A DNA stretch of 15,426 bases, taken from NCBI GenBank assembly GCA_949739085.1, contig CATIYU010000105.1, positions 1 to 15,426 of the forward strand. Reading direction: 5' to 3'. The stretch comes from an uncultured Eubacteriales bacterium. GTDB lineage: Bacteria > Bacillota_A > Clostridia > Oscillospirales > Oscillospiraceae. The notes beneath the pieces were generated by a model. It saw only the letters and a program-made list of their open reading frames with translations. It ran no database searches and had not been told where the DNA came from. A program made the translations under genes and the position numbers. Shown one piece after another: positions 1 through 14,415 of the stretch (positions are counted from its first letter, which is position 1; every line of letters begins with the position of its first letter).

Positions 1-458
1 AGCACCACCTCCAGGCTCTCCCCGGGCAGGCCGCTCTTGGCGAACCGGGGGGCCTGACGGGTGGGGGTGGCGAAGTGGGTGTTGCCCCAGCCGCCCTTGC
101 CGCCCCGGCAGAGGATAAAGGGCTCGTCCCCGGACATATCCTGGATGATATCGTTGGTCTCCGCGTCCCGGACCAACGTGCCCCGGGGGACGCGGATGGT
201 CAGGGACTTGCCGTCCTTGCCGCTTTTGCGCTGGCCCATGCCGTCTACGCCGTTCTCCGCCGTGTATTTCCGCTTGTAGCGGAAGTCCATGAGGGTGGAG
301 AGGTTGTCGTCCACCTGGAGGATGATATGTCCTCCAGCGCCGCCGTCACCGCCGTCGGGCCCGCCCGCGGCTACATACTTCTCCCGGTGGAAGGAAACGC
401 ACCCGTTGCCGCCGTTCCCGGCCCGCACGGTGATTCTCGCTTTATCAATAAAGGCCAT
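1..458 (-). CDS. obgE: Obg-family GTPase, N-terminal part (runs off left edge)
   Basis: The reverse strand from the ATG at 458 to the edge encodes 152 residues of an Obg/CgtA protein. It starts MAFIDKARITVRAGNGGNGC and continues with the glycine-rich Obg-fold repeats (GGPDGGDGGAGGH, CRGGKGGWGNTHFATPTRQAP). These are diagnostic of the Obg N-terminal domain that precedes the GTP-binding domain. Obg is a ribosome-associated GTPase needed for large-subunit maturation and stress control. The GTPase and any C-terminal domain lie outside the window. A GAAAGGAG ribosome site sits a few bases before the start. The gene follows the sirtuin on the same strand, but a hairpin with a T-run lies between them, so co-transcription is doubtful. 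The family call is near certain. The frame is open to the edge with no visible damage. Confidence 0.97.
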   Translation of the reverse strand, partial: MAFIDKARITVRAGNGGNGCVSFHREKYVAAGGPDGGDGGAGGHIILQVDDNLSTLMDFRYKRKYTAENGVDGMGQRKSGKDGKSLTIRVPRGTLVRDAETNDIIQDMSGDEPFILCRGGKGGWGNTHFATPTRQAPRFAKSGLPGESLEVV

Positions 459-511
459 AGTGGCTCCTTTCTGTCTCGCTGACCCTGTATCATATTGTGT
501 GGCAAATAAGG

Positions 512-548
512 AGAAAACATACGGCGGCCCCGCCCTTGCGGGACCGCC
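512..548 (-). terminator. Rho-independent terminator after the sirtuin gene
   Basis: On the reverse strand an 11-bp GC-rich stem (arms 538-548 and 523-533, one G-U wobble, 4-nt loop) is followed by GTATGTTTTC. It begins 19 nt past the sirtuin stop codon. The T-run is short, so termination may be partial and obgE may receive some read-through. Confidence 0.65.
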
Positions 549-567
549 CGCGCCGTGGTATACTGTC

Positions 568-1281
568 CTAGAGCTGGCGCATGACCTCCCCGATGGGGGC
601 GCTGATGGTCAAATCCGCGCCCGCGCCGGGAAGCTGGGACTTATTGATGACTACCAGCCGGGTTCCCCGGTAGTAGCGCACCAGCCCCGCCGCCGGGTAG
701 ACGGTGAGGGAGGTGCCGCCGATGATGAGCACCTCCGCCTGCCGGATGGCGGAGACGGATTTTGCCAGCACGTCCTGGTCCAAGCCCTCCTCGTAGAGCA
801 CCACGTCGGGCTTGATGATCCCGCCGCAGCGGCACCGGGGGACGCCCGCGCTGTTCTGGACCGCCTCCACGCCGTGGAACGCGCCGCATCTGGCGCAGTA
901 ATTGCGCAGGACGCTGCCGTGGAGCTCCAGAACGTTTTTGCTACCCGCCTTCTGGTGGAGGCCGTCGATATTCTGGGTGATGACGGCCCGGAGCTTCCCC
1001 AGAGCCTCCAGCTCCGCCAGCTTGAGGTGGGCGGGGTTGGGCTCCGCGTCCAGACAGAGCATCTTGTTGCGGTAGAAGCGGAAGAACTCCTCCGGGTTCT
1101 CCTCGTAAAAGCTGTGGCTGAGGATAGTTTCCGGCGGGTAGTCGTACTGCTGGTGGTAGAGGCCGCCGGTGCTGCGAAAGTCGGGGATGCCGCTCTCGGT
1201 GCTGACCCCGGCCCCGCCGAAAAAGACGGTATTGCCGCTCTGGGCAATCCAATCCTTCAGGGTTTTCACTTCGTCTGACAT
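568..1281 (-). CDS. SIR2-family NAD-dependent protein deacylase (sirtuin, class U type)
   Basis: This 237-aa protein has the usual length of a bacterial sirtuin. Visible motifs in order are the NAD-binding GAGVSTESGIPDFRS (residues 23-37), TQNIDGLHQKAG (102-113), the catalytic His121 in LHGS, a zinc site of Cys129, Cys132, Cys150 and Cys152, then KPDVVLYEE (158-165) and the ribose-binding GGTSL (188-192). All catalytic residues are present. By family knowledge it removes acetyl or other acyl groups from lysines, consuming NAD+ and yielding nicotinamide and O-acyl-ADP-ribose in the cytoplasm. The sequence resembles the Thermotoga-like class U group. The ATG at 1281 follows an AGGAGGG ribosome site. 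It is divergent from the ArsC-like gene with only 54 nt between starts. Its substrates cannot be read from the sequence. Confidence 0.95.
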   Translation of the reverse strand: MSDEVKTLKDWIAQSGNTVFFGGAGVSTESGIPDFRSTGGLYHQQYDYPPETILSHSFYEENPEEFFRFYRNKMLCLDAEPNPAHLKLAELEALGKLRAVITQNIDGLHQKAGSKNVLELHGSVLRNYCARCGAFHGVEAVQNSAGVPRCRCGGIIKPDVVLYEEGLDQDVLAKSVSAIRQAEVLIIGGTSLTVYPAAGLVRYYRGTRLVVINKSQLPGAGADLTISAPIGEVMRQL

Positions 1282-1335
1282 GGGAATCCCTCCTGTTTTC
1301 TCCCATACATTCTATATTATAAGGAGTATACTGGC

Positions 1336-1671
1336 ATGAATATTCAGATTTTTGGCTCCTCCAAGTGCTTTGACACGAAAAAGGCCCAGCGGTGGTTCAA
1401 GGAGCGGCGCATACAGTTCCAGTATATAGACCTCCCCAAGAAGGGCTTTTCCCCCGGGGAGTACCGCTCCGTGCGGCAGAAGCTCAGCTTCGAGCAGCTG
1501 GTGAACACCCAGTGCAGGGCGTACCAGGACCTCTACATGGCCTATATCACCCCGGAGGCGGCGGAGGAGAAGCTCTTTGACAACCCCCAGCTCTTCAACA
1601 CGCCGGTTGTGCGCAACGGGAAATTTGTCACCGTGGGCTTCTGCCCGGAGGTGTGGGAAACCTGGGAGTAG
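1336..1671 (+). CDS. ArsC/Spx-family thioredoxin-fold protein with a single N-terminal cysteine
   Basis: This 111-aa protein has the length and layout of the ArsC/Spx/YffB family: an N-terminal strand and active-site loop (GSSKCFDTKKAQRWF, Cys11), then VNTQCRAYQDL (residues 57-66) and the C-terminal FNTPVVRNGKFVTVGF (cis-Pro90 followed by Arg93). It lacks the CXXC pair of Spx. Cys11 sits at the position of the ArsC catalytic cysteine, and a second Cys60 occupies the usual glycine-like position of the NT(S/R)G motif. Family members include glutaredoxin-coupled arsenate reductases, RNA-polymerase-binding Spx regulators and many uncharacterised proteins, so arsenate reduction is not established. 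No ars genes are near. The AAGGAG at 1321-1326 is 9 nt before the ATG. The gene converges on the small membrane protein, with stops 7 nt apart. Confidence 0.85.
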   Translation: MNIQIFGSSKCFDTKKAQRWFKERRIQFQYIDLPKKGFSPGEYRSVRQKLSFEQLVNTQCRAYQDLYMAYITPEAAEEKLFDNPQLFNTPVVRNGKFVTVGFCPEVWETWE

Positions 1672-1678
1672 CCCGCGC

Positions 1679-1873
1679 CTATTTTTCCCGGTATCCCTTC
1701 ACTGCTGCGGCGGCTCCCAGCAGGATAAGTCCCCAGGAGAGCGCGGGCAGCAGCCCCTCGTCCAGAACCGTCACGTTGGGCATGTTGGACACAATCCATG
1801 CGGCCATGTAGCTGGTGCAGCGCACAATCACTCCGGCGAGGAACAGCCCTACGCCTATAACAATTTTTTTCAT
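1679..1873 (-). CDS. Small hypothetical membrane protein (64 aa)
   Basis: This short reading frame encodes 64 residues with two hydrophobic segments (about residues 4-27 and 42-58), separated by a short polar loop (NMPNVTVLDEG) and ending in the basic tail KGYREK. I recognise no family. Support for it being real: the ATG is 7 nt after the stop of the rhomboid-like gene on the same strand, GGAG sits across that stop at a suitable spacing, and the frame fills the gap exactly up to the convergent ArsC-like gene. It is probably translated with the rhomboid-like protein and could be a membrane partner of it. That link rests on position only. Confidence 0.65.
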   Translation of the reverse strand: MKKIVIGVGLFLAGVIVRCTSYMAAWIVSNMPNVTVLDEGLLPALSWGLILLGAAAAVKGYREK

Positions 1874-1880
1874 ACCCGCG

Positions 1881-2732
1881 TCACTCCGTAAAGTGGGTGT
1901 GGTTGAAGATGTGGTCCTCGCAGAAGCAGTGGTAGCCCGCGCACTTGGAGCAGTAGCGGAACTGGAGGTTGGGGTACTCCGTGTCCGTGCGGCCGCAGAC
2001 GGAGCACTTGTGGTTGTAGCCCTTCTGCCGCTGCTGCTCCTTGACGGCCCTGCGGAACTGCACCGCCTCGGGGCGGCGGCGGACCCGGGCCCGGTCCACC
2101 CGCTGCTGGAAGTCCGGAGAGAAGAAGATCAGCAGGTTCAGGAGGGCCACAACGGGCAGCAGGGCCATGCCCCAGTACCCGGCGGCGATGGACTGGATAA
2201 CGCTGAGGGCGTAGAGGGCGGCCTCCAGAATGGCCAGCCACTTCATTTTAATGGGAATGATGAAGTAGATGTTGATGATGGTATCAGGATAGGTGAGGGC
2301 GTAGGCAAAAAAGAGGGCCGTATTGACGTAGCTGGCCCCCAGGATGGGCAGAGATACGCCGTCAATAAAATAGGCCAGAATGGCGGCCAGGGCGGTCAGC
2401 AGCACGCCGCTGAGGTAGTAGATGGTGAACTTGGCGCTGCCCCAGAGCTGCTCCAGCGTGGAGCCCAGCCAGTAGTAGAAGAAGAGGGAGACAATCAGCC
2501 AGAATCCGCCGCTGGTGGGGGCCAGGGCGTAGGTCACCAGCCGCCAGACCTGCCCGTGGAGGACGGCCTGGGCGTCCATCATCAGAAATTGGAGCAGCAG
2601 GCCGGACCGGTCGAAGATGCTCAGGAGATAGATGGCGGCGTTGGCGGCCACGATGAAGCGCATCAGGTTGGGGATACCCAGCCGGGGGTGTAGAGCGCAG
2701 AAGCGGTCTATGGCGTCGTTCAGCTTTCTCAA
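1881..2732 (-). CDS. Rhomboid-like membrane protein with C-terminal Cys/His-rich (zinc-ribbon-like) tail
   Basis: This 283-aa protein has about six hydrophobic segments and rhomboid landmarks: HGQVWRLVTYALAP (residues 59-72, the L1-loop region), GSTLEQLWG (90-98) and GAS (132-134) at the active-site serine position. The serine motif is GASY rather than GASG. The last membrane segment (about 183-204) has no histidine, so the Ser-His dyad is incomplete and protease activity is doubtful. The tail after residue 240 is soluble and carries Cys243, Cys246, Cys261, Cys264, His268, Cys269, Cys271, His274, His278 and His280, enough ligands for one or two zinc ions. The start is TTG at 2732, chosen because GGAGGA lies 8 nt upstream and no ATG fits. 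It may be an inactive, derlin-like rhomboid that binds membrane proteins. Confidence 0.85.
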   Translation of the reverse strand: MRKLNDAIDRFCALHPRLGIPNLMRFIVAANAAIYLLSIFDRSGLLLQFLMMDAQAVLHGQVWRLVTYALAPTSGGFWLIVSLFFYYWLGSTLEQLWGSAKFTIYYLSGVLLTALAAILAYFIDGVSLPILGASYVNTALFFAYALTYPDTIINIYFIIPIKMKWLAILEAALYALSVIQSIAAGYWGMALLPVVALLNLLIFFSPDFQQRVDRARVRRRPEAVQFRRAVKEQQRQKGYNHKCSVCGRTDTEYPNLQFRYCSKCAGYHCFCEDHIFNHTHFTE

Positions 2733-2740
2733 GGGAAGAT

Positions 2741-2746
2741 TCCTCC
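2741..2746 (-). promoter_or_regulatory. Strong ribosome binding site that fixes a TTG start
   Basis: GGAGGA on the reverse strand ends 8 nt before the TTG at 2732. It is the only strong ribosome site upstream of the rhomboid-like frame, so it decides the non-ATG start. Confidence 0.75.
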
Positions 2747-2767
2747 AGTTTTTTTGGTAGTGGGTCT

Positions 2768-2816
2768 ATTGTACTCCAACAGAGGGGAAAAGTCATCAAA
2801 AATATTTGAATATTTT
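2768..2816 (-). promoter_or_regulatory. Probable promoter and AT-rich palindrome upstream of the rhomboid-like gene
   Basis: On the reverse strand a TACAAT -10 box occupies 2773-2768. No good -35 is present at 17 nt (ATGACT; TGACTT at 16 nt). Just upstream lies a perfect 8+8 palindrome with a 2-nt centre (AAAATATT-CA-AATATTTT on the reverse strand, 2799-2816). The weak -35 beside a palindrome suggests a promoter controlled by a DNA-binding protein. The promoter call is moderate. The palindrome itself is certain. Confidence 0.55.
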
Positions 2817-2849
2817 GGGAAAGGGAGCTGGCGGCGGCGCGGCGGAGAG

Positions 2850-2883
2850 AAAGAGACTGCGGTTTTTGCACCGCAGCCTCTTT
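2850..2883 (-). terminator. Terminator of the polyferredoxin operon
   Basis: Stem arms 2850-2862 and 2871-2883 pair over 13 bp with one G-U wobble and an 8-nt loop. The structure lies shortly downstream of the polyferredoxin-thioredoxin stop codon. On the reverse strand the downstream arm ends in CTCTTTCTCTCC, a modest pyrimidine tail. Confidence 0.75.
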
Positions 2884-2901
2884 TTCGCGTGTCAAGCGGG
2901 C

Positions 2902-4383
2902 TTACGCGCCCTCTGTCAGAGCGCCAACCAGAGATTCCAGCTGCTCGTAGGTGACAGAACCCACGGCGTTGTAGACGATCACGCCGTCCTGATCCAGAAT
3001 AACGGTCTGGGGCAGCATGGTGGAGCCGCCGTAGGCGGCCAGGACGCCGCAGCTGTCCAGGGCAAAGGGGATGGCGTAGCCGTAGTTGGCCAGATAGGCG
3101 TCCACGTCCTCTGTGACCAGGCTGGAGTGGACGGCCACTACCGCCACGCTGCCGCCATAGTCGCGGAAGAGTTGGTCAAAATAGGGCAGCTCCGCTACGC
3201 AGGGGCCGCACCAGGTGGCCCAAAAGTTGATGACCGTCACCGTACCCCGGGTGTCCGAGAGGGTGAAATCGCCGCCGCCGTAGAGGGGCACGGTAAAATC
3301 GGGACCCAGATCGCCCACCTCATTGCCCACGGGGGCTTCCGGCGGGGCGGCCTCCACCGGCGCGTCCGCCGCGTCTGGGGCGGGGGGTTCCCCGGTGAGC
3401 AGATTGTAGTAAGCCAGCGCCGCAGCAAGCACGGCCAGGGCGGCGCACCAGGCGATGTAGCGGTTCCGGCCCAGCCTGCCGGGGGAATCCCCCTGTCTGG
3501 GGGCCCGGAGGGTGACGCCGCCAGCCCGGAAGGAGATGGCGGCGGCGGGGCAGGCGTCCACACATCCGGCGCAGTGGATGCACTCGCGGCCGCCCACATG
3601 GCGGACGTCCATCTTACAGCGGTCCACGCACAGGCCGCAGTGGGTGCATTTGGAGGCATCCACCTTCACGCCCACCAGGTTCAGCCGGGCGAAGAGTCCA
3701 TAGATAGCGCCAAGAGGGCAGAGAAAGCGGCAGAAAACCCGGTAGACAAAGACGCTGGCGCCAAAGATGAGCACCATTATGACGAACTTCCAGGTGAAAA
3801 GGAAGTTCAGCATGGAAAACCGGCTGGCGTTGGCGGGGTTCGCCAGGAGGCCAATAGCCCCCTGGAAGGTCCCGGCGGGGCAGATGTACTTGCAGAAGGC
3901 CGGGACGGGGTAGCGCTGGGCCGCGTACCACAGGGGGATGAGCGCCACAAATACCGCCAGAATCACATACTTCAGGAGGGACAACGCCCGGGTGGCCCGG
4001 CTCTTTTGCAGCTTGGGCGTGGGGATTTTGTGCAGGAGCTCCTGTATCAGACCCATGGGGCACAAAAAACCGCAGATGGTGCGCCCCAGCGTTAGGCCCA
4101 GCAGCAGCAGAACGCCCAGCATATACAGGGGGGCCCGGGTCCCCGACGAGGCCAGGGCGTTTTGCAGGGCCCCCAGCGGGCAGGCCCCCACCGCCCCGGG
4201 GCAGGAGTAGCAGTTAAGACCCGGGACGCAGAGCGCTTTTGTACTGCCCGCGTAGATCTCGCCGCTTATGTAGCCCTTGAGGTGCGCGTTATACAGCAGC
4301 GCCGCGTATACCTGAATGAGCCTGCGCCGGGTGGGCAGGCGGTTTTTTATCCAACTGGCAGCTTTCATCCCTTCAACCCCCAT
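2902..4383 (-). CDS. Membrane polyferredoxin (NapH/YccM-like) fused to a TlpA-like thioredoxin domain
   Basis: This 493-aa fusion has an N-terminal membrane part (about residues 20-235) with several helices and cysteine motifs typical of NapH-like proteins: Cys58/Cys61/Cys68, GFLCPMG (Cys104, Cys108), CKYICPAG (Cys164, Cys168) and CRFLCPLG (Cys218, Cys222). Two 4Fe-4S ferredoxin motifs follow (Cys246, 249, 252, 256 and Cys268, 271, 274, 278). Next come a membrane helix (about 309-327), a Pro/Ala/Glu-rich linker, and a thioredoxin domain with WCGPC (391-395) and the cis-Pro loop STMLPQT (454-460). The layout puts the Fe-S centres inside the cell and the thioredoxin outside. By family knowledge such polyferredoxins pass electrons through the membrane, so an extracytoplasmic disulphide reductase fed by iron-sulphur clusters is inferred. 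Start: ATG 4383 preceded by GAGG, 10 nt after the upstream gene; the frame is open further upstream, but those starts lie inside that gene. Confidence 0.9.
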   Translation of the reverse strand: MGVEGMKAASWIKNRLPTRRRLIQVYAALLYNAHLKGYISGEIYAGSTKALCVPGLNCYSCPGAVGACPLGALQNALASSGTRAPLYMLGVLLLLGLTLGRTICGFLCPMGLIQELLHKIPTPKLQKSRATRALSLLKYVILAVFVALIPLWYAAQRYPVPAFCKYICPAGTFQGAIGLLANPANASRFSMLNFLFTWKFVIMVLIFGASVFVYRVFCRFLCPLGAIYGLFARLNLVGVKVDASKCTHCGLCVDRCKMDVRHVGGRECIHCAGCVDACPAAAISFRAGGVTLRAPRQGDSPGRLGRNRYIAWCAALAVLAAALAYYNLLTGEPPAPDAADAPVEAAPPEAPVGNEVGDLGPDFTVPLYGGGDFTLSDTRGTVTVINFWATWCGPCVAELPYFDQLFRDYGGSVAVVAVHSSLVTEDVDAYLANYGYAIPFALDSCGVLAAYGGSTMLPQTVILDQDGVIVYNAVGSVTYEQLESLVGALTEGA

Positions 4384-4393
4384 CCGATGGCCC

Positions 4394-4849
4394 TCAGCCC
4401 AGGCCGATGCATTCCGTGCAGATGTTGGCCGCCTTGACCAGCACGTCCCGGAGGCCGCCGTTGAGAACGCCCAGGACAATGAGAACAGCGGCGGCGGCAT
4501 AGAGCGCCAGGCGCAGGCCCCTTGTTCCGGCATTCCCCAGTTCCGTTCGGGGCGCGGCTTTGGGAGGTGTTCTCCCGCGGCGGACGCTCTGTTGTCCCGC
4601 CGCGGCCTGGAGGACCAGCCCCGCCGCAGCCAGCGCCAGATAGGCGAAGAGCGCGGGGGAGATGGCCGCCAGACGGTCCGCCACGATCTCCCAGGAATAT
4701 ACGGGCTCAATGCGCTCGCCGGAGGCGGTGAAGTTTTCCGGGCTGTTGCCGGTAAGGCAGACGTCCGCCGCCTGCCAGCACAGCAGCAGGCACACGGCGG
4801 CGGTCGCCGCCGCTAGGACCAGGCGCAGAACGCGCAGGGCGCGGGCCAT
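4394..4849 (-). CDS. Membrane protein with C-terminal CD1871A-type CXXC tail
   Basis: This 151-aa protein has an N-terminal hydrophobic helix (about residues 7-26), a short polar loop, a second helix (about 62-82), a basic Arg/Lys/Pro linker (90-110), and a last helix followed by NGGLRDVLVKAANICTECIG with Cys144 and Cys147 at the extreme C-terminus. That final 40-residue block matches the small CD1871A family of CXXC proteins, known from Clostridia next to polyferredoxin and thioredoxin genes. Those proteins are normally about as short as this block, so this looks like a fusion or an extended form. The CXXC pair beside the membrane could relay electrons or bind a metal. Start ATG 4849 was chosen because a consensus promoter lies at 4912-4884, which leaves a leader of about 28 nt with GGGGGAG. 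It is first in the operon with the polyferredoxin fusion. Confidence 0.85.
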   Translation of the reverse strand: MARALRVLRLVLAAATAAVCLLLCWQAADVCLTGNSPENFTASGERIEPVYSWEIVADRLAAISPALFAYLALAAAGLVLQAAAGQQSVRRGRTPPKAAPRTELGNAGTRGLRLALYAAAAVLIVLGVLNGGLRDVLVKAANICTECIGLG

Positions 4850-4883
4850 GAGATCTCCCCCTTTTTCCATACAGCTTTCCCAC

Positions 4884-4912
4884 ATTATACTGCCGGAAGC
4901 CCTGTAATGCAA
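4884..4912 (-). promoter_or_regulatory. Sigma-A promoter of the CXXC/polyferredoxin operon
   Basis: Reverse strand: TTGCAT (4912-4907), 17-nt spacer, TATAAT (4889-4884). Transcription should start near 4877. This rules out the longer reading-frame starts upstream and supports the ATG at 4849. Confidence 0.85.
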
Positions 4913-4945
4913 GGGGGAGTGCAGGCGGCGGGCTCGCGAATCCGC

Positions 4946-4958
4946 CCAAAATTTTTGG
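4946..4958. promoter_or_regulatory. Palindrome midway between the divergent redox promoters
   Basis: CCAAAA-T-TTTTGG is a perfect 6+6 inverted repeat. Its centre (4952) lies at the midpoint between the two -35 boxes (ending at 4912 and starting at 4991). It could be a shared operator for both transcription units. No regulator gene is adjacent. Confidence 0.4.
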
Positions 4959-4990
4959 TTTGTGGGGGCCGCCCTTTGTCACTCAACATA

Positions 4991-5019
4991 TTGACAGGCC
5001 GGTCCCTTTCCCGTATCAT
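4991..5019 (+). promoter_or_regulatory. Sigma-A promoter of the thioredoxin lipoprotein
   Basis: TTGACA (4991-4996), 17-nt spacer, TATCAT (5014-5019). The leader is about 65 nt and ends in GGAGGA (5078-5083), 8 nt before the ATG at 5092. Confidence 0.85.
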
Positions 5020-5091
5020 GGGACGCAGCTATTTCTTCGGCCAGATCAGCCGGGAGAGATAGAAATACAGGGAATTTGGAGGAAATGAACC

Positions 5092-6888
5092 ATGAAACGC
5101 AGGTCTCTGCTTGCTTTTCTTCTCCTGTTGATTCTGTGCCTGGCCGCCTGCGGGGGAGGGCCGGACGGGAACGGAGGGGAACAGGCCGCGCCCAGGGAGG
5201 ACTTCCCCGCCGCCGCTGTTGGAACCGGACTGGGCGACGGCATCGCGGACTTCACCTTTACAGCCTATGACGGCAAAACCTACAGCCTCTACGAGACCCT
5301 GGAGGAGAAAAAGATGGTCCTCATCAACCTGTGGGCCAGCTGGTGCGGTCCCTGCCGGGCCGAGTTCCCCTATATGCAGACCGCGTATGAGGCGTACCAG
5401 GACGATGTGGAGATCTTTGCCCTCTCCTGTGAGGCGGGGGATACCAGCGAGGTTCTCCGCGCCTACGCGGAGAGCATGGGCCTGACCTTCCCTGTGGGCC
5501 GGGATACGCCTAAGCTGCTGGAGGAGAGCTTCCGGACCGGTTCGGTCCCCACCTCCGTGGTGGTGGACCGCTTTGGCGTCATATGCTTTATTGCGTCCGG
5601 CGCGGTCCCGTCCCAGGAGGCGTTCCAACAGCTCTTCGACGTCTTTACGGCAGAGGACTATACGGAATCCGTCCTGCTCCCGGATGGCCTCCCCGCGAAG
5701 CGCCCCGATGTGGAGCCCGAGGACCCCGCCGAATTGGCCGCCGTTCTGGGGGAGGGCCTCACCTATGTGAACCCGGACGGCGGGCATACCTGGCCCCTCG
5801 CCTTGGAGGACGGCTGTGCGGCCTCCACCAACGCCGCTCAGAGCGCCACTGTCTCCGCCCTCCATGTGGAGCTGGCCGCCGCTGCCGGGGACGTGTTTGC
5901 GGTGGATTACGCTGTCTCCAGCGAGGCGGGCTTTGACTTTATGACCATCTCTGTCAACGGCGAAGTGGTGAAGTGCGCCAGCGGCCAGCAGGACTGGTCT
6001 ACCGCCTTCTACACCTTCGAGGAGGCCGGGGATTACACGGTGACCCTGGCCTACGAGAAGGACGGGACCGGCGACGGCGGCAGCGACGGGGCGTACTTCA
6101 AGAACGTCCGCCTCCTCTCCGGGGACGAGGCCGCAACCCTGCGGGCCAGCCTGCCCGTCTGCCCCTACGCGGCGGAGACTACCCTTACCGTGACCAGCCC
6201 CGGCGCGGAGGAGGTGGTTATCAGCGACCCCAGCGGCGCGCTGGAGAGCGCCTTTGGAGACGCCCGGTGGTATATCATCCCCGGCCCCGCCGCCAGCTTC
6301 TCCGCCACTCTGGCCGAGGGCCTGAACGCCGGATGCGCCAGCTTCCTCAGCGGTAGCGGCGGCAGCGCCGTCCTCTCCGACTGCGTGGCGGACGGGAAGT
6401 ACGTGTTTACGGTCAGCGAACCCACGGGGATTGGCTATGCGGCCCTTCTGCCCTCCATGTCCAGTGAGCCGCTTACGATCTTTTTCTTCAATGGCGAGGC
6501 AAATCTGAACGCCTTCCTGGCCCGGAACTTCACCGGGGCCAACGGCGTCCTGTCCGCCACTTGGAAGTATGCCAGCGGCGCGGCTCCCGCGTCCACCGCG
6601 GTCAGCGAGGGGGCGGACGCCCTGGAGGAGGGAAAGGTCCTCTACTACCTGGTGTTCGTTGACCAGGACGGCGCGCCTGTGGAGGGGGTTACCGTCAATA
6701 TCTGCGACGACAGCTCCTGCACCCCCATGCAGTCCGGCGCGAACGGCGTGGCGGCCTTTGCCTATCCCCCCTTTGGCTACCATGTTCAGGTCCTCCAGGT
6801 TCCGGACGGCTATGAGTACGATCTATCCACAGAAACCTATCTGAGCGAAGAGGGCGGCGTCACAGAGCTTGTTGTGAACAAGAAGTAA
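5092..6888 (+). CDS. Lipoprotein with TlpA-like thioredoxin domain and long uncharacterised C-terminus
   Basis: This 598-aa protein begins with a lipoprotein signal (basic MKRR, a hydrophobic run, lipobox LAAC with Cys20). After a Gly-rich linker there is a TlpA/redoxin domain (about residues 48-187) with WASWCGPCRAEFPYM (active Cys85 and Cys88) and the cis-Pro loop SVPTSVV (151-157). The remaining ~400 residues are unlike ordinary TlpA proteins, which end near 190. They include a beta-rich segment resembling a jelly-roll (about 260-347), a further unassigned region, and a C-terminal segment from about residue 515 that looks like an Ig/transthyretin-type surface domain (VDQDGAPVEGVTVNICDD). 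The thioredoxin part should reduce or exchange disulphides outside the membrane. Divergent transcription from the polyferredoxin-thioredoxin operon suggests a shared pathway. Functions of the C-terminal domains are unknown. Confidence 0.9.
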   Translation: MKRRSLLAFLLLLILCLAACGGGPDGNGGEQAAPREDFPAAAVGTGLGDGIADFTFTAYDGKTYSLYETLEEKKMVLINLWASWCGPCRAEFPYMQTAYEAYQDDVEIFALSCEAGDTSEVLRAYAESMGLTFPVGRDTPKLLEESFRTGSVPTSVVVDRFGVICFIASGAVPSQEAFQQLFDVFTAEDYTESVLLPDGLPAKRPDVEPEDPAELAAVLGEGLTYVNPDGGHTWPLALEDGCAASTNAAQSATVSALHVELAAAAGDVFAVDYAVSSEAGFDFMTISVNGEVVKCASGQQDWSTAFYTFEEAGDYTVTLAYEKDGTGDGGSDGAYFKNVRLLSGDEAATLRASLPVCPYAAETTLTVTSPGAEEVVISDPSGALESAFGDARWYIIPGPAASFSATLAEGLNAGCASFLSGSGGSAVLSDCVADGKYVFTVSEPTGIGYAALLPSMSSEPLTIFFFNGEANLNAFLARNFTGANGVLSATWKYASGAAPASTAVSEGADALEEGKVLYYLVFVDQDGAPVEGVTVNICDDSSCTPMQSGANGVAAFAYPPFGYHVQVLQVPDGYEYDLSTETYLSEEGGVTELVVNKK

Positions 6889-6911
6889 AAAGACAAAAAG
6901 CCCATAGATAA

Positions 6912-6946
6912 GGAGCGGCACAGCGGAAGCTGCGTCGCTCCTTTTT
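6912..6946 (+). terminator. Rho-independent terminator after the thioredoxin lipoprotein
   Basis: Arms 6912-6924 and 6929-6941 form a 13-bp stem (one G-U wobble, one A-C mismatch) with a GGAA tetraloop, followed by TTTTT. It starts 23 nt past the stop codon. Lying between convergent genes, the hairpin may also stop leftward transcripts of the TrhA gene, although the T-run on that side is weaker. Confidence 0.88.
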
Positions 6947-6986
6947 CATAGGAGACGGAACGGGGGGTTCACACCCTGTCCATGCG

Positions 6987-7631
6987 CTATACGCAGTAGA
7001 GCGCGATGCAGATATATTGCAGGATGCTGCCAGCCAGCACGAACAGGTGCCAGACAAAGTGCCTGTAGCGCTTCTGGGACTTGTAAAAGACGATTCCCGC
7101 CGTATACGCCACGCCGCCCCCCGTCAGGAGCGCCAGGCCCAGCGGCGGCAGGGCTTCGATTATCGCTCCAAGCGCCAGCACCACCAGCCAGCCCATCAGG
7201 GCGTAGAGGACCAGGGAGAGCTTGTCGAACCGCTTGAGGTCAATGGCGTTGAGGGTGATGCCCACCACCGCCAGGGTGGTGTTGGTGAGAAAGAGCATCC
7301 AGCCCGTCCGGCCCCCCACCACCAGCAGGGACATGGGGATATAGGTGCCCAGAATGAGGATGAAAATGGAGCAGTGGTCCATCACCCGCAGGGCCCGCTT
7401 TACCGCCGGGGTGCGCACAGCGTGGTATACCGCCGAGGCGGTGTACAGCAGCACCAGGCTGACTCCGTAGGCCGCCAGACTGAAGACGGTTTTCGGCGAC
7501 CCGGACAGAATCCCCCGCGCCACCAGCGGGGCCGCCCCTGCCGCCGCCAGCAGCGCACCTACGCCGTGGGAAATGGTGTTGGCCAGTTCCTCGCCCGCAG
7601 TCTGGGGCCGGGATAATTTTTTCTCTGCCAT
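6987..7631 (-). CDS. trhA: TrhA/hemolysin III family membrane protein (PAQR superfamily)
   Basis: This 214-aa protein with about seven hydrophobic segments has the full-length layout of the hemolysin III/PAQR family. The metal-site signature is complete: Ser66 and His70 in SAVYH, Asp85 and His86 in MDHCSIF, and His191 and His195 in YRHFVWHLF, plus the N-terminal NTISHGVGA. Bacterial members have been linked to membrane fluidity and energy homeostasis. The hemolysin name is historical, so toxin activity should not be assumed. The start at 7631 was chosen over the upstream in-frame ATG at 7676 because AAGGAG lies 8 nt before it, and MAEKK matches family starts. Transcribed alone from a consensus promoter about 60 nt upstream, divergent from the DUF1836 gene. 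Confidence 0.93.
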   Translation of the reverse strand: MAEKKLSRPQTAGEELANTISHGVGALLAAAGAAPLVARGILSGSPKTVFSLAAYGVSLVLLYTASAVYHAVRTPAVKRALRVMDHCSIFILILGTYIPMSLLVVGGRTGWMLFLTNTTLAVVGITLNAIDLKRFDKLSLVLYALMGWLVVLALGAIIEALPPLGLALLTGGGVAYTAGIVFYKSQKRYRHFVWHLFVLAGSILQYICIALYCV

Positions 7632-7693
7632 AGCGGTCTCCTTTCCAGAAGGCCCCGGAGGGCCTGTCAAGCACATACCTAATATTCGATATT

Positions 7694-7722
7694 ATTATAT
7701 ATCGCTATCGATAATATGTCAA
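7694..7722 (-). promoter_or_regulatory. Consensus promoter of trhA with overlapping palindromes
   Basis: Reverse strand: TTGACA (7722-7717), 17-nt spacer, TATAAT (7699-7694), a perfect consensus. The spacer contains TATCG-ATAG-CGATA, and AATAT-CGA-ATATT lies just past the -10. These inverted repeats overlap the polymerase site, as repressor operators do. Confidence 0.9.
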
Positions 7723-7756
7723 GCGCCTTGCCGGGATTATTCTTTGATTTTTTATA

Positions 7757-7785
7757 TTGCATTATGCAGGAAATTCGGCTATACT
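7757..7785 (+). promoter_or_regulatory. Sigma-A promoter of the DUF1836 gene
   Basis: TTGCAT (7757-7762), 17-nt spacer, TATACT (7780-7785). Transcription should begin near 7792, at the foot of the hairpin listed next. Confidence 0.82.
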
Positions 7786-7787
7786 AA

Positions 7788-7814
7788 AAAGGGGCGCACA
7801 CTGTGCGTCCCTTT
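7788..7814 (+). promoter_or_regulatory. Stem-loop at the 5' end of the DUF1836 mRNA
   Basis: Arms 7788-7799 and 7803-7814 pair over 12 bp (one G-U wobble) with a 3-nt loop. No T-run follows on the + strand, so it is not a terminator for this gene. Placed at the transcript start, it may protect the 5' end or mark a regulatory site. The ribosome site (AAGGGGGGAG, 7833-7842) is outside the stem. Confidence 0.6.
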
Positions 7815-7846
7815 GGAAAAAACAAACGAAATAAGGGGGGAGCCCT

Positions 7847-8392
7847 ATGAATAACGATACGGCGGCCTCCGCCCGGCGGCTGGCGGAGTGGATGGAGGCG
7901 CTGGAGCGGTTCAGCCTGCCGGATTGGGAGGCCCTGCCCCAGCTGGACCTGTACATGGACCAGGTGGTGCTCCTGCTCACCCGGTATCTGGAGCCCATGT
8001 ACGCCGGGGAGGACGAGCGGTTCATCACCGCCAGCATCATCAATAACTACGTGCGCATGAAGGTAATGCCGCCGCCGGTGAAGAAAAAGAACTCCCGGGC
8101 CCACATCGCCTACCTGGTCATTATCTGCGCCCTCAAGCAGAGCCTGAGCATCTCCCAAATCCAGCAGCTGCTGCCGGAGGACCGGGAGGAGGGAGCTGTG
8201 CGGGCGCTGTATACGGAGTTTGTGGGGCGGTTCCGGGACGCGGCGGCGTTCGTCTGCCGGAGCCCCCGGGCTCCAGAGCGCAGCGCCCTGGAGGATGGCG
8301 GCGGACTGGCGATGACCGCCGCCATCCTATCGGTCCTCTCCAAATCCCTTACAGATTTCCTGCTGTACGAGGAGGACGGGGAGGAGGATTAG
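7847..8392 (+). CDS. DUF1836 family protein
   Basis: This 181-aa soluble protein has the DUF1836 core at about residues 60-110: ITASIINNYVR, MPPPVKKKNSRAHIAYL, then SISQIQQLL. The pattern resembles a MerR-like helix-turn-helix followed by helices, so DNA binding is plausible but not shown. The family is common in Clostridia and Bacilli and has no established function that I know of. The start ATG 7847 follows a strong AAGGGGGGAG. The acidic C-terminus (YEEDGEED) ends in a stop that overlaps the stop of the convergent symporter gene. It is monocistronic with its own promoter. A link to the divergent trhA gene is possible only by position. Confidence 0.88.
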   Translation: MNNDTAASARRLAEWMEALERFSLPDWEALPQLDLYMDQVVLLLTRYLEPMYAGEDERFITASIINNYVRMKVMPPPVKKKNSRAHIAYLVIICALKQSLSISQIQQLLPEDREEGAVRALYTEFVGRFRDAAAFVCRSPRAPERSALEDGGGLAMTAAILSVLSKSLTDFLLYEEDGEED

Positions 8393-9615
8393 CGCCGCCC
8401 GGCGCTCTGCGGGACGCGGGCTGTCTCCTTCATGGCCACTGAGCAGGCCAGGTCCCCCAGCACGTTGCAGCAGGTGGCCCCCATGTCGCAGAGGGTGTTG
8501 ACGCTGATGTACACCCCCATCACCCCGGCGGGGAGTCCGGCGATGGCGGCCAAGGCGGCGAAGGAGGCGATGGCTCCGCCGGGCACCCCCGGCGTGCCGA
8601 TGCTCAGCAGGGTGTTGCTCAGCAGCACTACCGCCAGCATTCCGAAGCTGATCTCCACGCCGCAGGCGTTGGCGAAGAAGACGATCATAAAACTCATGAC
8701 AATGCTCACCGCGTCCATGTTGATGGTGGCCCCCAGGGGCAGCGCCAGGCTGGAGACCTCGTTGGGGACCCCCAGCCCGTCGGCGCAGCGCTTGCTGATG
8801 GGCAGAGTGGCGGAGCTGGAGCAGGTGCCAAAGGCGTTGAGGGCCGCCGGGAGGACCTTGAGGAAGAAGGTTTTGACGCTACACTTGCCCAATACCTTCA
8901 CGATGCCGCCGTAGACAATGAGGCTGTAGAGGAACATGGTCAGGTAGAGTGCCGCCAGCACCGCCCCCAGGGCGATGATGGTGTCCGTGCCGTTGGCGCA
9001 GATGACGGAGGCGATGGAACAGAACACGCCCACGGGGGTGAAGTACATCACCACAGAGATGATCTTTACGGAGATGCCGTTTACCGCCTCTGTCAGGTCC
9101 ACGAAGGGCTTCGCTTTCTCCCCCAGGGCCAGACAGGCGGCACCCACGATGATGGCGAACACCAGCACTTGCAGCATGTCGCCGTTGGCGAAGGCGGCGG
9201 CGGGGTTGGCGGGGATGAGGTTTTTCACCGTGTCCAGCAGGCTGGTGAAGGGGGTGGCCTCCACGGCGGACTCCACCATCTCGATAACCACGCCCTGCCC
9301 CAGCCCCAGGGCTTTGGGCAGGAACAGCCCCAGCAGGCTGGCAAACAGGGTGGTGGCGGTGAAATACACCACGGACTGGGCCCCGATGCGCCCCGTGGCG
9401 GAGACGCTGCCGATGCTGTGGATGCCCACGATGAGGGAGCAGAACACCAGGGGGTAGATCATCATGCGCAGGGCGTTCATGTACAGCCCGCCCACCAGGT
9501 CGATGGCTGGCAGCAGGAATTCCATGCGGCCCGGGATGACGAGACCGGCGGCAATGCCCAGCAGCAGGCCCAGAAAAATCGCCAGGGTAATGTTGAGCGT
9601 TTTCTTGGTTTTCAT
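8389..9615 (-). CDS. Dicarboxylate/amino acid:cation symporter (DAACS family), probably neutral amino-acid specific
   Basis: This 408-aa protein has the DAACS fold landmarks: N-terminal helices, the serine-rich hairpin CSSSATLPISK (residues 265-275), the NMD motif (299-301), the second hairpin GTPGVPGGAI (340-349) and the last-helix motif DMGATCCNVLGD (377-388). Family members import glutamate, aspartate, C4-dicarboxylates or small neutral amino acids with Na+ or H+. Aligned to GltPh, Asp377, Thr381, Asn384 and Asp388 match D394, T398, N401 and D405. The substrate-side-chain Arg397 is Ala380 here, and D390 is Asn373. Loss of this Arg marks neutral substrates in relatives such as ASCT1/2. The start ATG 9615 was chosen because GAGGAG lies 8 nt upstream and the upstream frame is T-box leader. 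Expression is under a T-box riboswitch. The stop overlaps that of the DUF1836 gene. Confidence 0.94.
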   Translation of the reverse strand: MKTKKTLNITLAIFLGLLLGIAAGLVIPGRMEFLLPAIDLVGGLYMNALRMMIYPLVFCSLIVGIHSIGSVSATGRIGAQSVVYFTATTLFASLLGLFLPKALGLGQGVVIEMVESAVEATPFTSLLDTVKNLIPANPAAAFANGDMLQVLVFAIIVGAACLALGEKAKPFVDLTEAVNGISVKIISVVMYFTPVGVFCSIASVICANGTDTIIALGAVLAALYLTMFLYSLIVYGGIVKVLGKCSVKTFFLKVLPAALNAFGTCSSSATLPISKRCADGLGVPNEVSSLALPLGATINMDAVSIVMSFMIVFFANACGVEISFGMLAVVLLSNTLLSIGTPGVPGGAIASFAALAAIAGLPAGVMGVYISVNTLCDMGATCCNVLGDLACSVAMKETARVPQSAGRR

Positions 9616-9639
9616 CTGAAAATCTCCTCTTTTTCCTGA

Positions 9640-9678
9640 AAATAATAAAATGCCCGTCTTCCATAACAGAAGACGAGC
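9640..9678 (-). terminator. T-box-controlled intrinsic terminator
   Basis: Reverse strand: GCUCGUCUUC (9678-9669) pairs with GAAGACGGGC (9661-9652) across a GUUAUG-containing loop and is followed by AUUUUAUUAUUUU. Its 5' arm is the same segment used by the antiterminator, so the two structures exclude each other. Confidence 0.95.
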
Positions 9679-9968
9679 ATGATATACCCGTGGTACCACT
9701 TCTCTTCGCCCCGGCGGGCCGAAGCCGCCGGAACCTCATAGGCATCCAACAATGCCCCCCGCTGTAACAGGCGGACCTGTCGCGCCCTGGCAAAAGCTCG
9801 GGCGCGCTGCTCTGGAACCATGTTCACCTGCTTCCGGCCTGTCTCCTCTCAGCATACGGAGACTCTCTGTAAGGCGTTCCAGAGGCGCCCGCTCCAGGGA
9901 GCGGGACCCCGGCGGCTGCGCCGCCCAAGCTACTCTTTCCTTCATCGCGTTTCACGCTTATGAAACTG
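9640..9968 (-). promoter_or_regulatory. T-box riboswitch (tRNA-sensing leader) of the symporter
   Basis: This ~330-nt leader has the T-box elements in order on the reverse strand: the 5' GAUGAAGGAAAGAGUAG segment (about 9946-9930), GC-rich hairpins inserted in stem I, the conserved CAGAGAG followed by a distal hairpin (arms UCUCC/GGAGA), the specifier-loop strand GUGAACAUGG (9827-9818), a stem CGCGCCC/GGGCGCG, a CCGGCGG/CCGCCGG stem III, and the antiterminator. In the antiterminator (9703-9668) AGAAG pairs with CUUCU and ACGGGU with GCUCGU around the T-box bulge UGGUACC (9698-9692). UGGU would pair with a tRNA 3' end of sequence ACCA, i.e. discriminator base A73. An uncharged cognate tRNA should favour read-through. 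The specifier is read best as AUG (Met), less well as GCA (Ala). Confidence 0.95.
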
Positions 9969-9974
9969 TGGCTT

Positions 9975-10003
9975 ATTATAGGCGGCGGCGGTGGATTTGT
10001 CAA
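9975..10003 (-). promoter_or_regulatory. Consensus promoter of the T-box/symporter transcript
   Basis: Reverse strand: TTGACA (10003-9998), 17-nt spacer made mostly of CCG repeats, TATAAT (9980-9975). This is a perfect consensus promoter. The -35 box contains the TGA stop of the upstream histidine kinase. Confidence 0.92.
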
Positions 10004-10926
10004 GAAAAAATTTTCCGGGCTTCCGGCGGCAGATCTCCCTGGGGCTCCGGGAAGCGGATGCGGATTTCCAGCCTGTCCCCGGCGTATTGGGCGGCAATGG
10101 TTCCGTTCATCCGCTCCACCAGGGCCTTGGCGATGGCCAGGCCCAAACCGGTGGAGTTCCGGGCCGCCTCCACGGAGAAGAAGCGGTCGAAGAGCCGCCC
10201 CACCTCCACCTCGTTCAGGCCGGGGGCGGTGTTGGAGAAGACGGCCTCCCCGTCCGCCAGGAGGGCCACCTCCAGGTCGCCGCCGCTATACTTCAGGGCG
10301 TTGCTCATAATGTTGCCGAACACCCGGGAGAGGGCGGCCCGGTTGAGGGGCCGGACCACCTTCGCCGCCGGAATGCGGATATCCGGCGTGATGCCCCGGG
10401 CGGTAAGAGCGCCGTAGAAGGCGGCCAGGCTCTCCTCCAGGGCGTCGTTGAGGCACAGGGGCTCCAGGGGCAGATCTTCCTCCAGGGAGAGGGTCACCGA
10501 GTAGCGCAGCAGCTCCTCTGTCAGCTGGCCCATGGCGTCTGCGCGGTTCCGGATCAGGGCCAGATACCGCGCCGCGTTCTCCGTGTGCTCCTCTCGCTCC
10601 AGCAGGTCCAGGTAGCCTCGGACGGCGGTGAGGGGGGTGCGCAGGTCGTGGGAGATGTTGGTCACCGCCTCTTTCAGCTCCCGGTCGCCGTTCTGGTACT
10701 GCCACCGCTGGTCCCGCAGAATCCGCAGGTGGCTGTTGAGCAGGGAGGCCAGGCGGCGGACGCGGCGGTCTCGGGTGGGACTGGAGAGGAGGTTGTTGGT
10801 GTCCTGGGAGAGAAGCGCCCCAAGAGCCTGGACGATTTCGTCCAGGCTCTTCCACATGAGATAGATTTTCAGGAGCAGGGCCGCCAGCGCCGCCGCCAGC
10901 AGGGCTGTGAGCATCCAGGGGAGCAT
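10000..10926 (-). CDS. Sensor histidine kinase of the ABC operon
   Basis: This 308-aa kinase has one N-terminal membrane helix (about residues 5-24) and no large external domain. The HisKA H-box is NISHDLRTPLTAVRGYLDLL with phospho-acceptor His93. The ATPase domain shows GNIMSNALKYS (N-box, Asn205 and Asn209), FDRFF (246-250) and NSTGLGLAIAKALVER (G2). The usual DxGxG G1 box is degenerate (NTAPGL, 232-237), as is common in this small-kinase group. With no sensing domain it probably senses the transporter or the membrane, as in intramembrane-sensing kinases. It should phosphorylate the response regulator encoded at the head of the cluster. It is last in the ABC operon, with GGAGG upstream of the start, 13 nt after the second permease, and has no own terminator before the next promoter. 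Confidence 0.93.
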   Translation of the reverse strand: MLPWMLTALLAAALAALLLKIYLMWKSLDEIVQALGALLSQDTNNLLSSPTRDRRVRRLASLLNSHLRILRDQRWQYQNGDRELKEAVTNISHDLRTPLTAVRGYLDLLEREEHTENAARYLALIRNRADAMGQLTEELLRYSVTLSLEEDLPLEPLCLNDALEESLAAFYGALTARGITPDIRIPAAKVVRPLNRAALSRVFGNIMSNALKYSGGDLEVALLADGEAVFSNTAPGLNEVEVGRLFDRFFSVEAARNSTGLGLAIAKALVERMNGTIAAQYAGDRLEIRIRFPEPQGDLPPEARKIFS

Positions 10927-10939
10927 ATTGCCGCCTCCG

Positions 10940-11767
10940 TTATTTCAAATCCTTCTTCTGAAAGAGAGCCGCCCCCACCCCCGCGCTGACGGCCAGGGCG
11001 CACAGGCTGGCCAGAGGCAGATACCAGGGGCAGGCGTCCGCCTTGGCCGCCAGCTGCACCGCCTGGCACCCCGGCAGCAGGTATATCAATTCGCAGACGG
11101 CCCGCCAGGGCCCCTGGACGTACCCCGGGTTGGGCTGGGCCTCCTGGAGGAGAATCCGGCCGTTTTCCACATACTCCCGGGCGGGAATCATCTCCGGTTC
11201 CGTCAGCCGGGAGTTGAGGTAAATCCCCAGAAACAGCAGGATATAGGCCAGGAAAATGCAGGCGACGGCGGAGACCGCCCTGTTTTGAATCAGCATGGCG
11301 GCCAGAGTGAAGAGGCCCGCCAGGGCGGCGGTCATGAGAAAGGCGCAGAGGGTGAACCACAAAACCGCCCCCAGCTCCATCTGGAACCAGCCCATCAGGG
11401 GAACCCCCACCGCCAGCATGGGGACAATGTACCCCAGGCACAGAAGGACCCCCGCCCCGGCACAGGCGGCGAGATTGGCCAGGTAGATGGCGCTTCTGGA
11501 GTGGCCCGCCAGGATTTTGTTGCGGATGGTCCCGCAGCTGTACTCCACGCCCAGAAAGAGGGCGCAGAAGGCGGAGAGCACAACCCCCGCTACCAGGACG
11601 AAAATAAAGTACCGGTTGTCCAGGCTCAGGACGATGCCCATACTCCGGGCGCTGAGGTACCCGGCGGCGGCCTCGAACACGCCAACGCCCGCCATCACCG
11701 CCATGGAGGCCCAGAAGGCCGCGCTCTTCCGGAGCCGGAGAAAATTAGCGCTCAAAAGAAGCCTCAT
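10940..11767 (-). CDS. ABC-2 type permease, second subunit (LanE/LanG-like)
   Basis: This 275-aa protein has about six hydrophobic helices. It opens with MRLLLSANFLRLRKSAAFW and carries the family motif EYSCGTIRNKILAGHSRSAIY (about residues 79-99). It ends in QKKDLK. It is a paralogue of the preceding permease: same length, matching start, the EYS.G.IRNKI..GHSR..IYLAN block and the same ending. Paired ~250-275-aa permeases with one ATPase are the layout of LanFEG lantibiotic-immunity and related peptide exporters. An AGGGGG ribosome site lies just before the ATG, 10 nt after the first permease stop. A large external loop between helices (about residues 195-235) is likely, from the polar stretch. 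Confidence 0.88.
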   Translation of the reverse strand: MRLLLSANFLRLRKSAAFWASMAVMAGVGVFEAAAGYLSARSMGIVLSLDNRYFIFVLVAGVVLSAFCALFLGVEYSCGTIRNKILAGHSRSAIYLANLAACAGAGVLLCLGYIVPMLAVGVPLMGWFQMELGAVLWFTLCAFLMTAALAGLFTLAAMLIQNRAVSAVACIFLAYILLFLGIYLNSRLTEPEMIPAREYVENGRILLQEAQPNPGYVQGPWRAVCELIYLLPGCQAVQLAAKADACPWYLPLASLCALAVSAGVGAALFQKKDLK

Positions 11768-11777
11768 GCGCCGCCCC

Positions 11778-13512: not shown

Positions 13513-13546
13513 GGAAAAACCTCCTTTGCCGCATGGTTCTGTTGCG

Positions 13547-13615
13547 GTGATAGCGGGATGATAGCGGAAAAGGGTTAAGAAAGCGGTAAAGGAAGCGGTA
13601 AAGAAATGGTATAGA
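13547..13615 (-). promoter_or_regulatory. Direct-repeat array and probable regulated promoter of the ABC operon
   Basis: The 103-nt gap between response regulator and ATPase contains tandem 12-bp repeats on the + strand: AAGCGGTAAAGG (13581-13592), AAGCGGTAAAGA (13593-13604), a weaker upstream copy AAAGGGTTAAGA (13569-13580, 8/12) and a degenerate copy at 13604-13615. A second pair, TGATAGCGG, occurs 11 nt apart (13548 and 13559). On the reverse strand TATCAT (13563-13558) or TATCAC (13552-13547) could be the -10. Neither has a good -35, and the repeats cover that position, as expected for activation by an OmpR-type regulator. Confidence 0.75.
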
Positions 13616-14275: not shown

Positions 14276-14306
14276 GGAAATCTCCTTTGCTTGTTGCACA
14301 AGGGGC

Positions 14307-14335
14307 ATTATAGACCTTTTCCCAGGCGTCCGCAA
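14307..14335 (-). promoter_or_regulatory. Promoter of the response regulator
   Basis: Reverse strand: TTGCGG (14335-14330), 17-nt spacer, TATAAT (14312-14307), about 30 nt before the start codon. The -35 boxes of this and the divergent DUF3786 promoter are 14 nt apart. Confidence 0.82.
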
Positions 14336-14349
14336 GAAAGATTTTGCTC

Positions 14350-14378
14350 TTGCCAGCCCTCCGCGGCTGTGATATAGT
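14350..14378 (+). promoter_or_regulatory. Promoter of the DUF3786 operon
   Basis: TTGCCA (14350-14355), 17-nt spacer, TATAGT (14373-14378). Transcription should start near 14385, about 30 nt before the ATG. Confidence 0.8.
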
Positions 14379-14415
14379 AGGTATAAAGGGAAAGTGAAAT
14401 GTGAGGAGCCGCCAT

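Follow-up and report, generated by a model that had tools for sequence, protein, structure and literature searches.

A NapH-like polyferredoxin and a CD1871A-family protein as a candidate membrane system for reducing external thioredoxins in anaerobic bacteria

Known systems and the window locus

CcdA and DsbD draw electrons from cytoplasmic thioredoxin and pass them across the membrane by way of cysteine pairs, and we know of no established electron supply to external thioredoxins in strict anaerobes that have neither protein. Ferredoxin:thioredoxin reductase (FTR) of chloroplasts and anaerobes reduces the disulfide of a thioredoxin with an iron-sulfur (Fe-S) cluster, and is a soluble, cytoplasmic enzyme of an unrelated fold. 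Here, we describe a locus in a 15,426-nucleotide stretch of DNA from an uncultured Eubacteriales bacterium (GCA_949739085.1, contig CATIYU010000105.1, positions 1 to 15,426; hereafter the window), in which a gene for a CD1871A-family membrane protein is followed by a gene for a NapH-like polyferredoxin fused to a thioredoxin domain. In contrast to CcdA/DsbD, neither protein matches DsbD_TM (PF02683) at an E-value of up to 0.1. The sequence evidence makes it rather probable, in our judgment, that the two form a membrane complex that reduces an external ResA-type thioredoxin in place of CcdA/DsbD in anaerobes. The case rests on gene linkage, invariant cysteines, predicted topology, the near-absence of CcdA from genomes with the fused form, and candidate selenocysteine codons.

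Several described systems share parts with this module. CcdA works with Etrx lipoproteins in the CcdA1-Etrx1-MsrAB2 system of Streptococcus pneumoniae (available passages of PMC3914529), and NapH, together with NapG, passes electrons from menaquinol (available passages of PMC5928378). NosR and RdhC/PceC, as described in parts of PMC5928378 and PMC8238504, carry a NapH-like membrane module and an external redox domain on one chain, as the fusion does, but theirs is an N-terminal domain that binds flavin mononucleotide (FMN), whereas that of the fusion is a C-terminal thioredoxin. An earlier survey (PMC8238504) covers FMN-domain conduits of the NapH-like kind as well as DsbD together with thioredoxins; the passages available from it mention no NapH-like conduit that leads to a thioredoxin. 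With FTR, the module would share the Fe-S-based reduction of a thioredoxin disulfide, but none of the fusion's 16 Pfam matches is to an FTR catalytic subunit family. By any domain tested, the fusion is neither a CcdA/DsbD nor a NosR/RdhC nor an FTR protein. Searches of titles and abstracts, with subscription journals and preprints mostly outside their coverage, found no description of the module. CD1871A (NF040920) is a name alone, as its NCBIfam line gives no function and a literature search by name found no paper.

On the minus strand of the window, the CD1871A-family gene (4849-4394, 151 aa) precedes the fusion gene (4368-2902). The NF040920 match of the former (36.3 bits, cut-off 32) spans residues 115-151 and includes a C-terminal CXXC in ICTECIGLG, which places the protein in the family. 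A ribosome-binding-like GGGGGAG lies ahead of its ATG. For the fusion, we prefer an ATG at 4368 (alternative 4383) over one at 4710, so that about 25 or 10 bases separate it from the CD1871A stop at 4394; this short same-strand gap suggests that the two genes are cotranscribed. Divergent from the pair, a plus-strand gene (5092-6888) encodes a thioredoxin lipoprotein of 598 aa with a lipoprotein signal MKRRSLLAFLLLLILCLAAC (lipobox LAAC), an AhpC-TSA/Redoxin domain over the cut-off, and CGPC at 5344-5355. A preliminary description made from the sequence alone had reported this arrangement of fusion, adjoining CD1871A, and divergent lipoprotein, and the Pfam and NCBIfam matches together with the coordinates confirm it. 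No DsbD_TM/CcdA protein, napG, or periplasmic reductase gene was found among the 17 open reading frames (ORFs) of the window scanned with Pfam.

The fusion matches PF12801 (Fer4_5) with 70.2 bits, and Fer4, Fer4_7, and Redoxin/AhpC-TSA are all over their cut-offs. Against the NapH model TIGR02163 it scores 70.7 bits, far below the cut-off of 213.05. Its membrane part is NapH-like: at 23% identity to Escherichia coli NapH, the pair of inner CX3CP motifs and the pair of cytoplasmic [4Fe-4S] motifs align with their NapH equivalents in the same order. E. coli NapH has neither the thioredoxin nor the six outer cysteines of the module protein. The coordinates in the rest of this paragraph are on the minus strand, and cysteine numbering and conservation are from a 111-row polyferredoxin alignment. 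A CX5CX2CX6C segment (C46, C52, C55, C62; 4180..4230), predicted to be external and without a counterpart in E. coli NapH, keeps its first three cysteines in 111 of 111 relatives and C62 in 110. The first inner CX3CP (C98, C102; 4060..4074), which a strongly positive loop follows, and the second (C212, C216; 3718..3732) are kept in all 111 and align with the two CX3CP motifs of NapH. Between them, an equally invariant outer CX3CP (C158, C162; 3880..3894), also predicted to be external, falls in a gap of the NapH alignment. The two ferredoxin motifs (C240-C250 and C262-C272; 3550..3648) match Fer4/Fer4_7, and all eight cysteines are present in 111 of 111 relatives. The last transmembrane helix (3400..3456; hydropathy center at residue 313, model helix 298-323) leads the chain outward through a Pro/Ala-rich linker to the thioredoxin domain (2905..3336), in which WATWCGPC has its CGPC at 3210-3199.

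The orientation of the protein was predicted with the positive-inside rule. Across the 111-row alignment, loop 115-129 holds 5.0 Lys and Arg versus 0.2 Asp and Glu, which places it inside; the Fer4 motifs are therefore predicted to face the cytoplasm. The outer face is predicted to hold C46-C62, C158/C162, and the thioredoxin domain, for which the preliminary description had supposed the same. An AlphaFold model built with 111 diverse relatives has a mean predicted local distance difference test score (pLDDT) of 92.0 and a predicted template modeling score of 0.86, whereas with 20 close relatives only, the membrane part was modeled poorly (mean pLDDT 58.6). The matches listed in fold searches with the model were taken up by the thioredoxin domain (model residues 344-487).

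The fused thioredoxin is of the ResA/TlpA type by its Redoxin/AhpC-TSA domain, its CXXC, and its ResA fold, although it scores 80.8 bits against the ResA model NF002854, for which the cut-off is 170. It is 32% identical to the thioredoxin domain of the window lipoprotein. The C-terminal ∼400 residues of the latter (5620-6888, plus strand) have no firm family assignment, with a weak carboxypeptidase-regulatory-like match near the end. Divergent thioredoxin proteins of 584-646 aa also occur at loci L001, L004, L006, L007, and L008. Six fusions (P0006, P0010, P0059, P0080, P0093, and P0113) have two closely similar thioredoxin domains in succession, the external domain being duplicated in tandem.

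Distribution of the module and its relation to CcdA/DsbD

Two sets of loci were compared. Fusion loci L001-L080 are the best 80 of at least 588 confirmed stretches from a scan of species genomes with a 20-sequence alignment. Loci L081-L120 are 40 of the 41 CD1871A matches from 40 of 245 genomes of the class, 39 of them over the cut-off; the 41st lies in G004, which also contains L006. A profile made from 35 short CD1871A proteins placed CD1871A on the polyferredoxin strand, no more than 700 bases upstream, at 79 of the 80 fusion loci and at 39 of the 40 CD1871A-found loci. The exceptions are L002, whose contig begins 64 bases before the gene, and L120, whose CD1871A-like peptide lacks the cysteines and is a look-alike. 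This peptide (L120:5212-5340, minus strand) reads SLHY in the CXXC region, had no polyferredoxin in the 11 kb covered there, and is possibly a decayed or repurposed relative. At L129 and L133, which are the same place in G302, the CD1871A frame appears to be broken just before the CXXC, and the adjoining polyferredoxin match is full-length.

The association also holds at the level of genomes. The 39 class genomes with CD1871A over the cut-off are the same 39 of 245 in which the polyferredoxin subfamily is found at E-values of 1.9e-85 or lower, and the next-best match has an E-value of 9e-58; scoring was limited to six candidates in each genome. Because 36 of the 39 gave rows to the 111-row alignment, their scores follow by construction; G171, G208, and G087, which gave none, still score 1.9e-85 or better. 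What is informative is the wide gap in score between these genomes and all those that lack CD1871A. This reciprocal co-occurrence puts the association far beyond chance.

At 79 of the 80 fusion loci and 32 of the 40 CD1871A-found loci, a thioredoxin is either part of the fusion or encoded separately no farther than 4.5 kb away, and the thioredoxin motifs of the module are most often CGPC or CTPC. The fusion was marked at 69 of the 80 loci; of the other 11, 8 show a single ORF with a thioredoxin motif, the query match reaches residue 488 at L060 and 423 at L079, and at L077 it reaches residue 313 only, in an ORF that ends after 324 aa with no thioredoxin nearby. The 37 polyferredoxin ORFs of the class sample comprise 33 unfused forms (270-341 aa), two fused (L109, L112), one cut by a contig end, and one of 475 aa. 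The CD1871A partners of these ORFs are mostly of 40-60 aa, and the window member of the family is longer, with extra N-terminal hydrophobic segments. Given this preponderance of unfused, short proteins, the fused, longer forms of the window look derived. A further thioredoxin gene, separate from the fusion, was seen within 6 kb at 20 of the 80 fusion loci, so that the window lipoprotein is optional, and we drop its earlier assignment as the fixed last step of the chain. The constant partner is CD1871A, to which the preliminary description had given no role.

Beyond the class, 35 of the 185 genomes searched from the phylum to which L043 (Fretibacterium, Synergistota) belongs have CD1871A. At three loci from that phylum (L136-L138), a polyferredoxin stands beside it in each case, and the 2-3 kb covered show a thioredoxin in two. 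A megaplasmid of the cultured Peptoclostridium acidaminophilum DSM 3953 carries adjacent genes for CD1871A and a 4Fe-4S protein; a TlpA gene lies upstream, separated by one major facilitator superfamily gene.

DsbD_TM is over the cut-off in 1 of the 80 fusion-locus genomes (0/30 and 1/50 in two sets), as opposed to 64 of 175 genomes of the order without CD1871A (p 1e-11). Within the order, 2 of 22 genomes with CD1871A have it versus 64 of the 175 others (p 0.008). Within the class, at an E-value of 0.001 or lower, the counts are 12 of 40 (including the look-alike genome G198) versus 112 of 205 (p 0.005). All are Fisher tests, which ignore kinship. The preliminary description held that the fusion replaces CcdA/DsbD and named as fatal a finding of the cluster only in genomes that also carry ccdA partners; the opposite was found, as the module occurs mostly where ccdA/dsbD is missing. 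In gene content, the replacement is borne out in the fusion genomes, but it is not strict in the class sample, where those 12 of 40 genomes carry both. When the same type of thioredoxin, identified with the thioredoxin part of the 111-row alignment, lies outside a module, a DsbD_TM gene stands within 300 bases in 29 of 32 cases, a count that leaves out two thioredoxin matches lying inside modules (G115, G129). This suggests that the same kind of partner can be served either by CcdA or by CD1871A and the polyferredoxin. Intermediate polyferredoxin relatives with E-values of ∼1e-57 (G272:C70:14482-15258 and G231:C1:2198296-2199069) occur in genomes without CD1871A, both within ∼10 kb of a CcdA-thioredoxin pair, and are a possible evolutionary link.

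Candidate selenocysteine codons and neighboring genes

In the window CD1871A protein, an Arg-rich loop precedes the last hydrophobic segment, and at least two Lys or Arg residues precede the hydrophobic segment in 32 of 35 short members, for which reason the CXXC (codons 4420-4418 and 4411-4409, minus strand) is predicted to lie outside, adjoining the membrane. At L105, a CD1871A gene (5275-5540, plus strand) has an in-frame TGA at 5512, at the first CXXC codon, and would read KAVRVULECIGIG. Thioredoxin genes beside the module have a TGA at the same codon at L094 (2021, plus) and L103 (3609, minus), giving candidate selenocysteine motifs WVTTUPSC and WGTFUPSC, respectively, in ResA-like proteins. 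About 20 bases downstream of these two thioredoxin codons lie the hairpins TTCCTGC-GTT-GCAGGAA (-9.1 kcal/mol, L094) and TTTCTGC-GTT-GCAGAAA (-6.7 kcal/mol, L103), whose arms covary between the two loci. Best-segment z values come from a sliding segment and are optimistic, and at L103 the best segment differs from the hairpin quoted here.

A selenocysteine tRNA scores 65-73 bits in all three genomes, and four other module genomes gave nothing above 47.3 bits (gathering score 47); G050 and G229 likewise have secondary matches with a score at this limit. Among 58 relatives of G126, 7 (G126 included) have CD1871A over the cut-off, and the in-frame TGA occurs in G126 only. Selenocysteine in the place of a Cys is a classic indication that the residue is redox-active. 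As the candidate exchange is seen in both proteins, the CXXC motifs of CD1871A and of the thioredoxin are probably both catalytic.

Gene clusters found near at least 5 of the 120 loci are the polyferredoxin (112), CD1871A (48), an ABC-type (ATP-binding cassette) ATPase (16, assigned by eye), response regulators (12), histidine kinases (11), a subtilase/leucine-rich-repeat protein (11), an antisense ORF family (9), thioredoxin lipoproteins (6), and a SpaA-like lipoprotein (5). Among clusters of this size there is no recurrent substrate enzyme or reductase, no napG, and no methionine sulfoxide reductase (Msr) type; the smaller clusters are mostly unannotated. In the window itself, a promoter-like site (TTGACA-17-TATCAT, 11/12; 4991..5019, plus strand) lies ahead of the lipoprotein gene, one of 3 such sites in a scan of 2700-7000 versus 0.6 expected in shuffles. 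A Rhomboid-like protease (1881-2732, minus strand) has a Cys/His-rich C-terminal tail (CSVCGRT...CSKC) that resembles a zinc ribbon. Farther away (10000-14335, minus strand), a response regulator, an ABC ATPase, two ABC-2 permeases, and a histidine kinase stand in a row, a layout that we take to be of the type familiar from peptide-antibiotic sensing and export systems.

A proposed electron path and its alternatives

Complex formation, electron direction, donor, relay order, cluster ligation, and final substrates are what we infer from these data. Electrons from a low-potential cytoplasmic donor, probably ferredoxin, would enter the two cytoplasmic [4Fe-4S] clusters and pass to the inner CX3CP cysteines (C98/C102 and C212/C216). 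From there they would move to the outer cysteines C46, C52, C55, C62, C158, and C162, arranged as an extra cluster or as thiol pairs, and on to the CXXC or UXXC of CD1871A, which would reduce the CXXC of the thioredoxin and, through it, external disulfides. Ferredoxin is suggested as the donor by the fermentative anaerobic lifestyle together with the ferredoxin motifs. By analogy with pneumococcal CcdA-Etrx-MsrAB2, as presented in the available part of PMC3914529, a surface methionine sulfoxide reductase is a candidate substrate. In its fullest form, the proposal is of a membrane-spanning ferredoxin:thioredoxin reductase that works with Fe-S centers, not a cysteine shuttle, by way of the CD1871A thiol or selenol. 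In many Clostridia, and probably in another phylum as well, it would do the work of CcdA/DsbD, sometimes with selenocysteine at the transfer step. We advance this fuller version tentatively, with slightly less than even confidence.

Besides the disregard of kinship noted above, several observations weigh against reduction by the polyferredoxin complex. Hydropathy flagged no helix before residue 82, so that a first helix near 18-37 must be assumed, and the first 80 residues hold 9.4 Lys and Arg per sequence. No thioredoxin lies within 4.5 kb at 8 of the 40 class loci, two of which are L096, at a contig end, and L120, the look-alike. DsbD_TM reaches an E-value of 0.001 or lower in 6 of the 80 fusion genomes (1/30 and 5/50), and most of these genomes are metagenome-assembled, with completeness not given. 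As for selenocysteine, the hairpin after the L105 codon is weak (-5.0 kcal/mol, z -0.84), the tRNA match of 47.3 bits in G147 just passes the gathering score, and a DNA pattern search found the UXXC form of CD1871A in 1 of 391 genomes only, the original. Finally, NapH and RdhC are described as tied to the quinol pool, not to ferredoxin, in the passages available from PMC5928378.

Within the proposed scheme, the path across the membrane could be a thiol path like that of CcdA, running through the CX3CP pairs with the Fe-S clusters feeding only the inner pair. We regard this variant as possible but somewhat doubtful. The three CX3CP motifs and the extra four-cysteine segment of the module polyferredoxins would suit it, and the RdhC paper, in the parts available, prefers disulfides for CX3CP on the grounds that NosR holds at most eight Fe (PMC5928378). 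Yet C46-X5-C52-X2-C55-X6-C62 resembles the CX5CX2CX5C of RseC, a motif whose domain binds an Fe-S cluster that is sensitive to oxygen (PMC11729352, in part), which makes a further cluster as plausible as thiol pairs.

It is improbable that the module is an ordinary NapH/NosR-like conduit of a respiratory quinol or flavin branch, leading to an external reductase for which the thioredoxin is only an assembly factor. NapH-like proteins are indeed modular conduits to many external reductases, as the available passages of PMC8238504 describe them, but the fusion has no FMN-binding family among its Pfam matches, and the recurrent neighbor clusters listed above, beyond which lie mostly unannotated ones, include no reductase.

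Thiol oxidation, in which electrons from reduced external thioredoxin would flow to the cytoplasmic ferredoxin pool and disulfides would form outside, appears quite unlikely to us. All parts are reversible in principle, and the direction is not fixed by sequence; however, the thioredoxins are of the ResA/Etrx type, mostly with CGPC or CTPC, and it is this type that pairs elsewhere with the reducing CcdA (the 29 of 32 cases above). Selenocysteine, for which there are candidates in both the thioredoxin and CD1871A, is likewise typical of reducing or peroxidase-like sites. Least probable of all, and unlikely for most module genomes, is a dedicated role in cytochrome c maturation with the thioredoxin as a polyferredoxin-fed ResA that reduces apocytochrome c: ResA is nearest in fold and sequence, but the cytochrome c assembly protein family PF01578 is over the cut-off in just 5 of 30 fusion genomes versus 8 of 14 controls.

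Reduction of an external thioredoxin by CD1871A and the polyferredoxin, the reading we prefer, would amount, if true, to a distinct chemistry for transmembrane disulfide reduction. Many strictly anaerobic gut bacteria appear, from the genes that they carry, to send electrons across the membrane by an Fe-S protein and a tiny partner with two cysteines, and so to hold extracellular proteins in the reduced state, for which other bacteria rely on CcdA/DsbD. The module is a compact candidate answer to how external thioredoxins are supplied in anaerobes without CcdA/DsbD, as it consists of two genes plus a thioredoxin and is present in the cultured P. acidaminophilum DSM 3953. NapH-like conduits would be linked to thiol chemistry, and the CD1871A family would gain a first function, with the candidate selenocysteine cases pointing to its exact catalytic residues and to those of the thioredoxin. 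The proposal predicts that reduced ferredoxin can pay for the reduction of external proteins.

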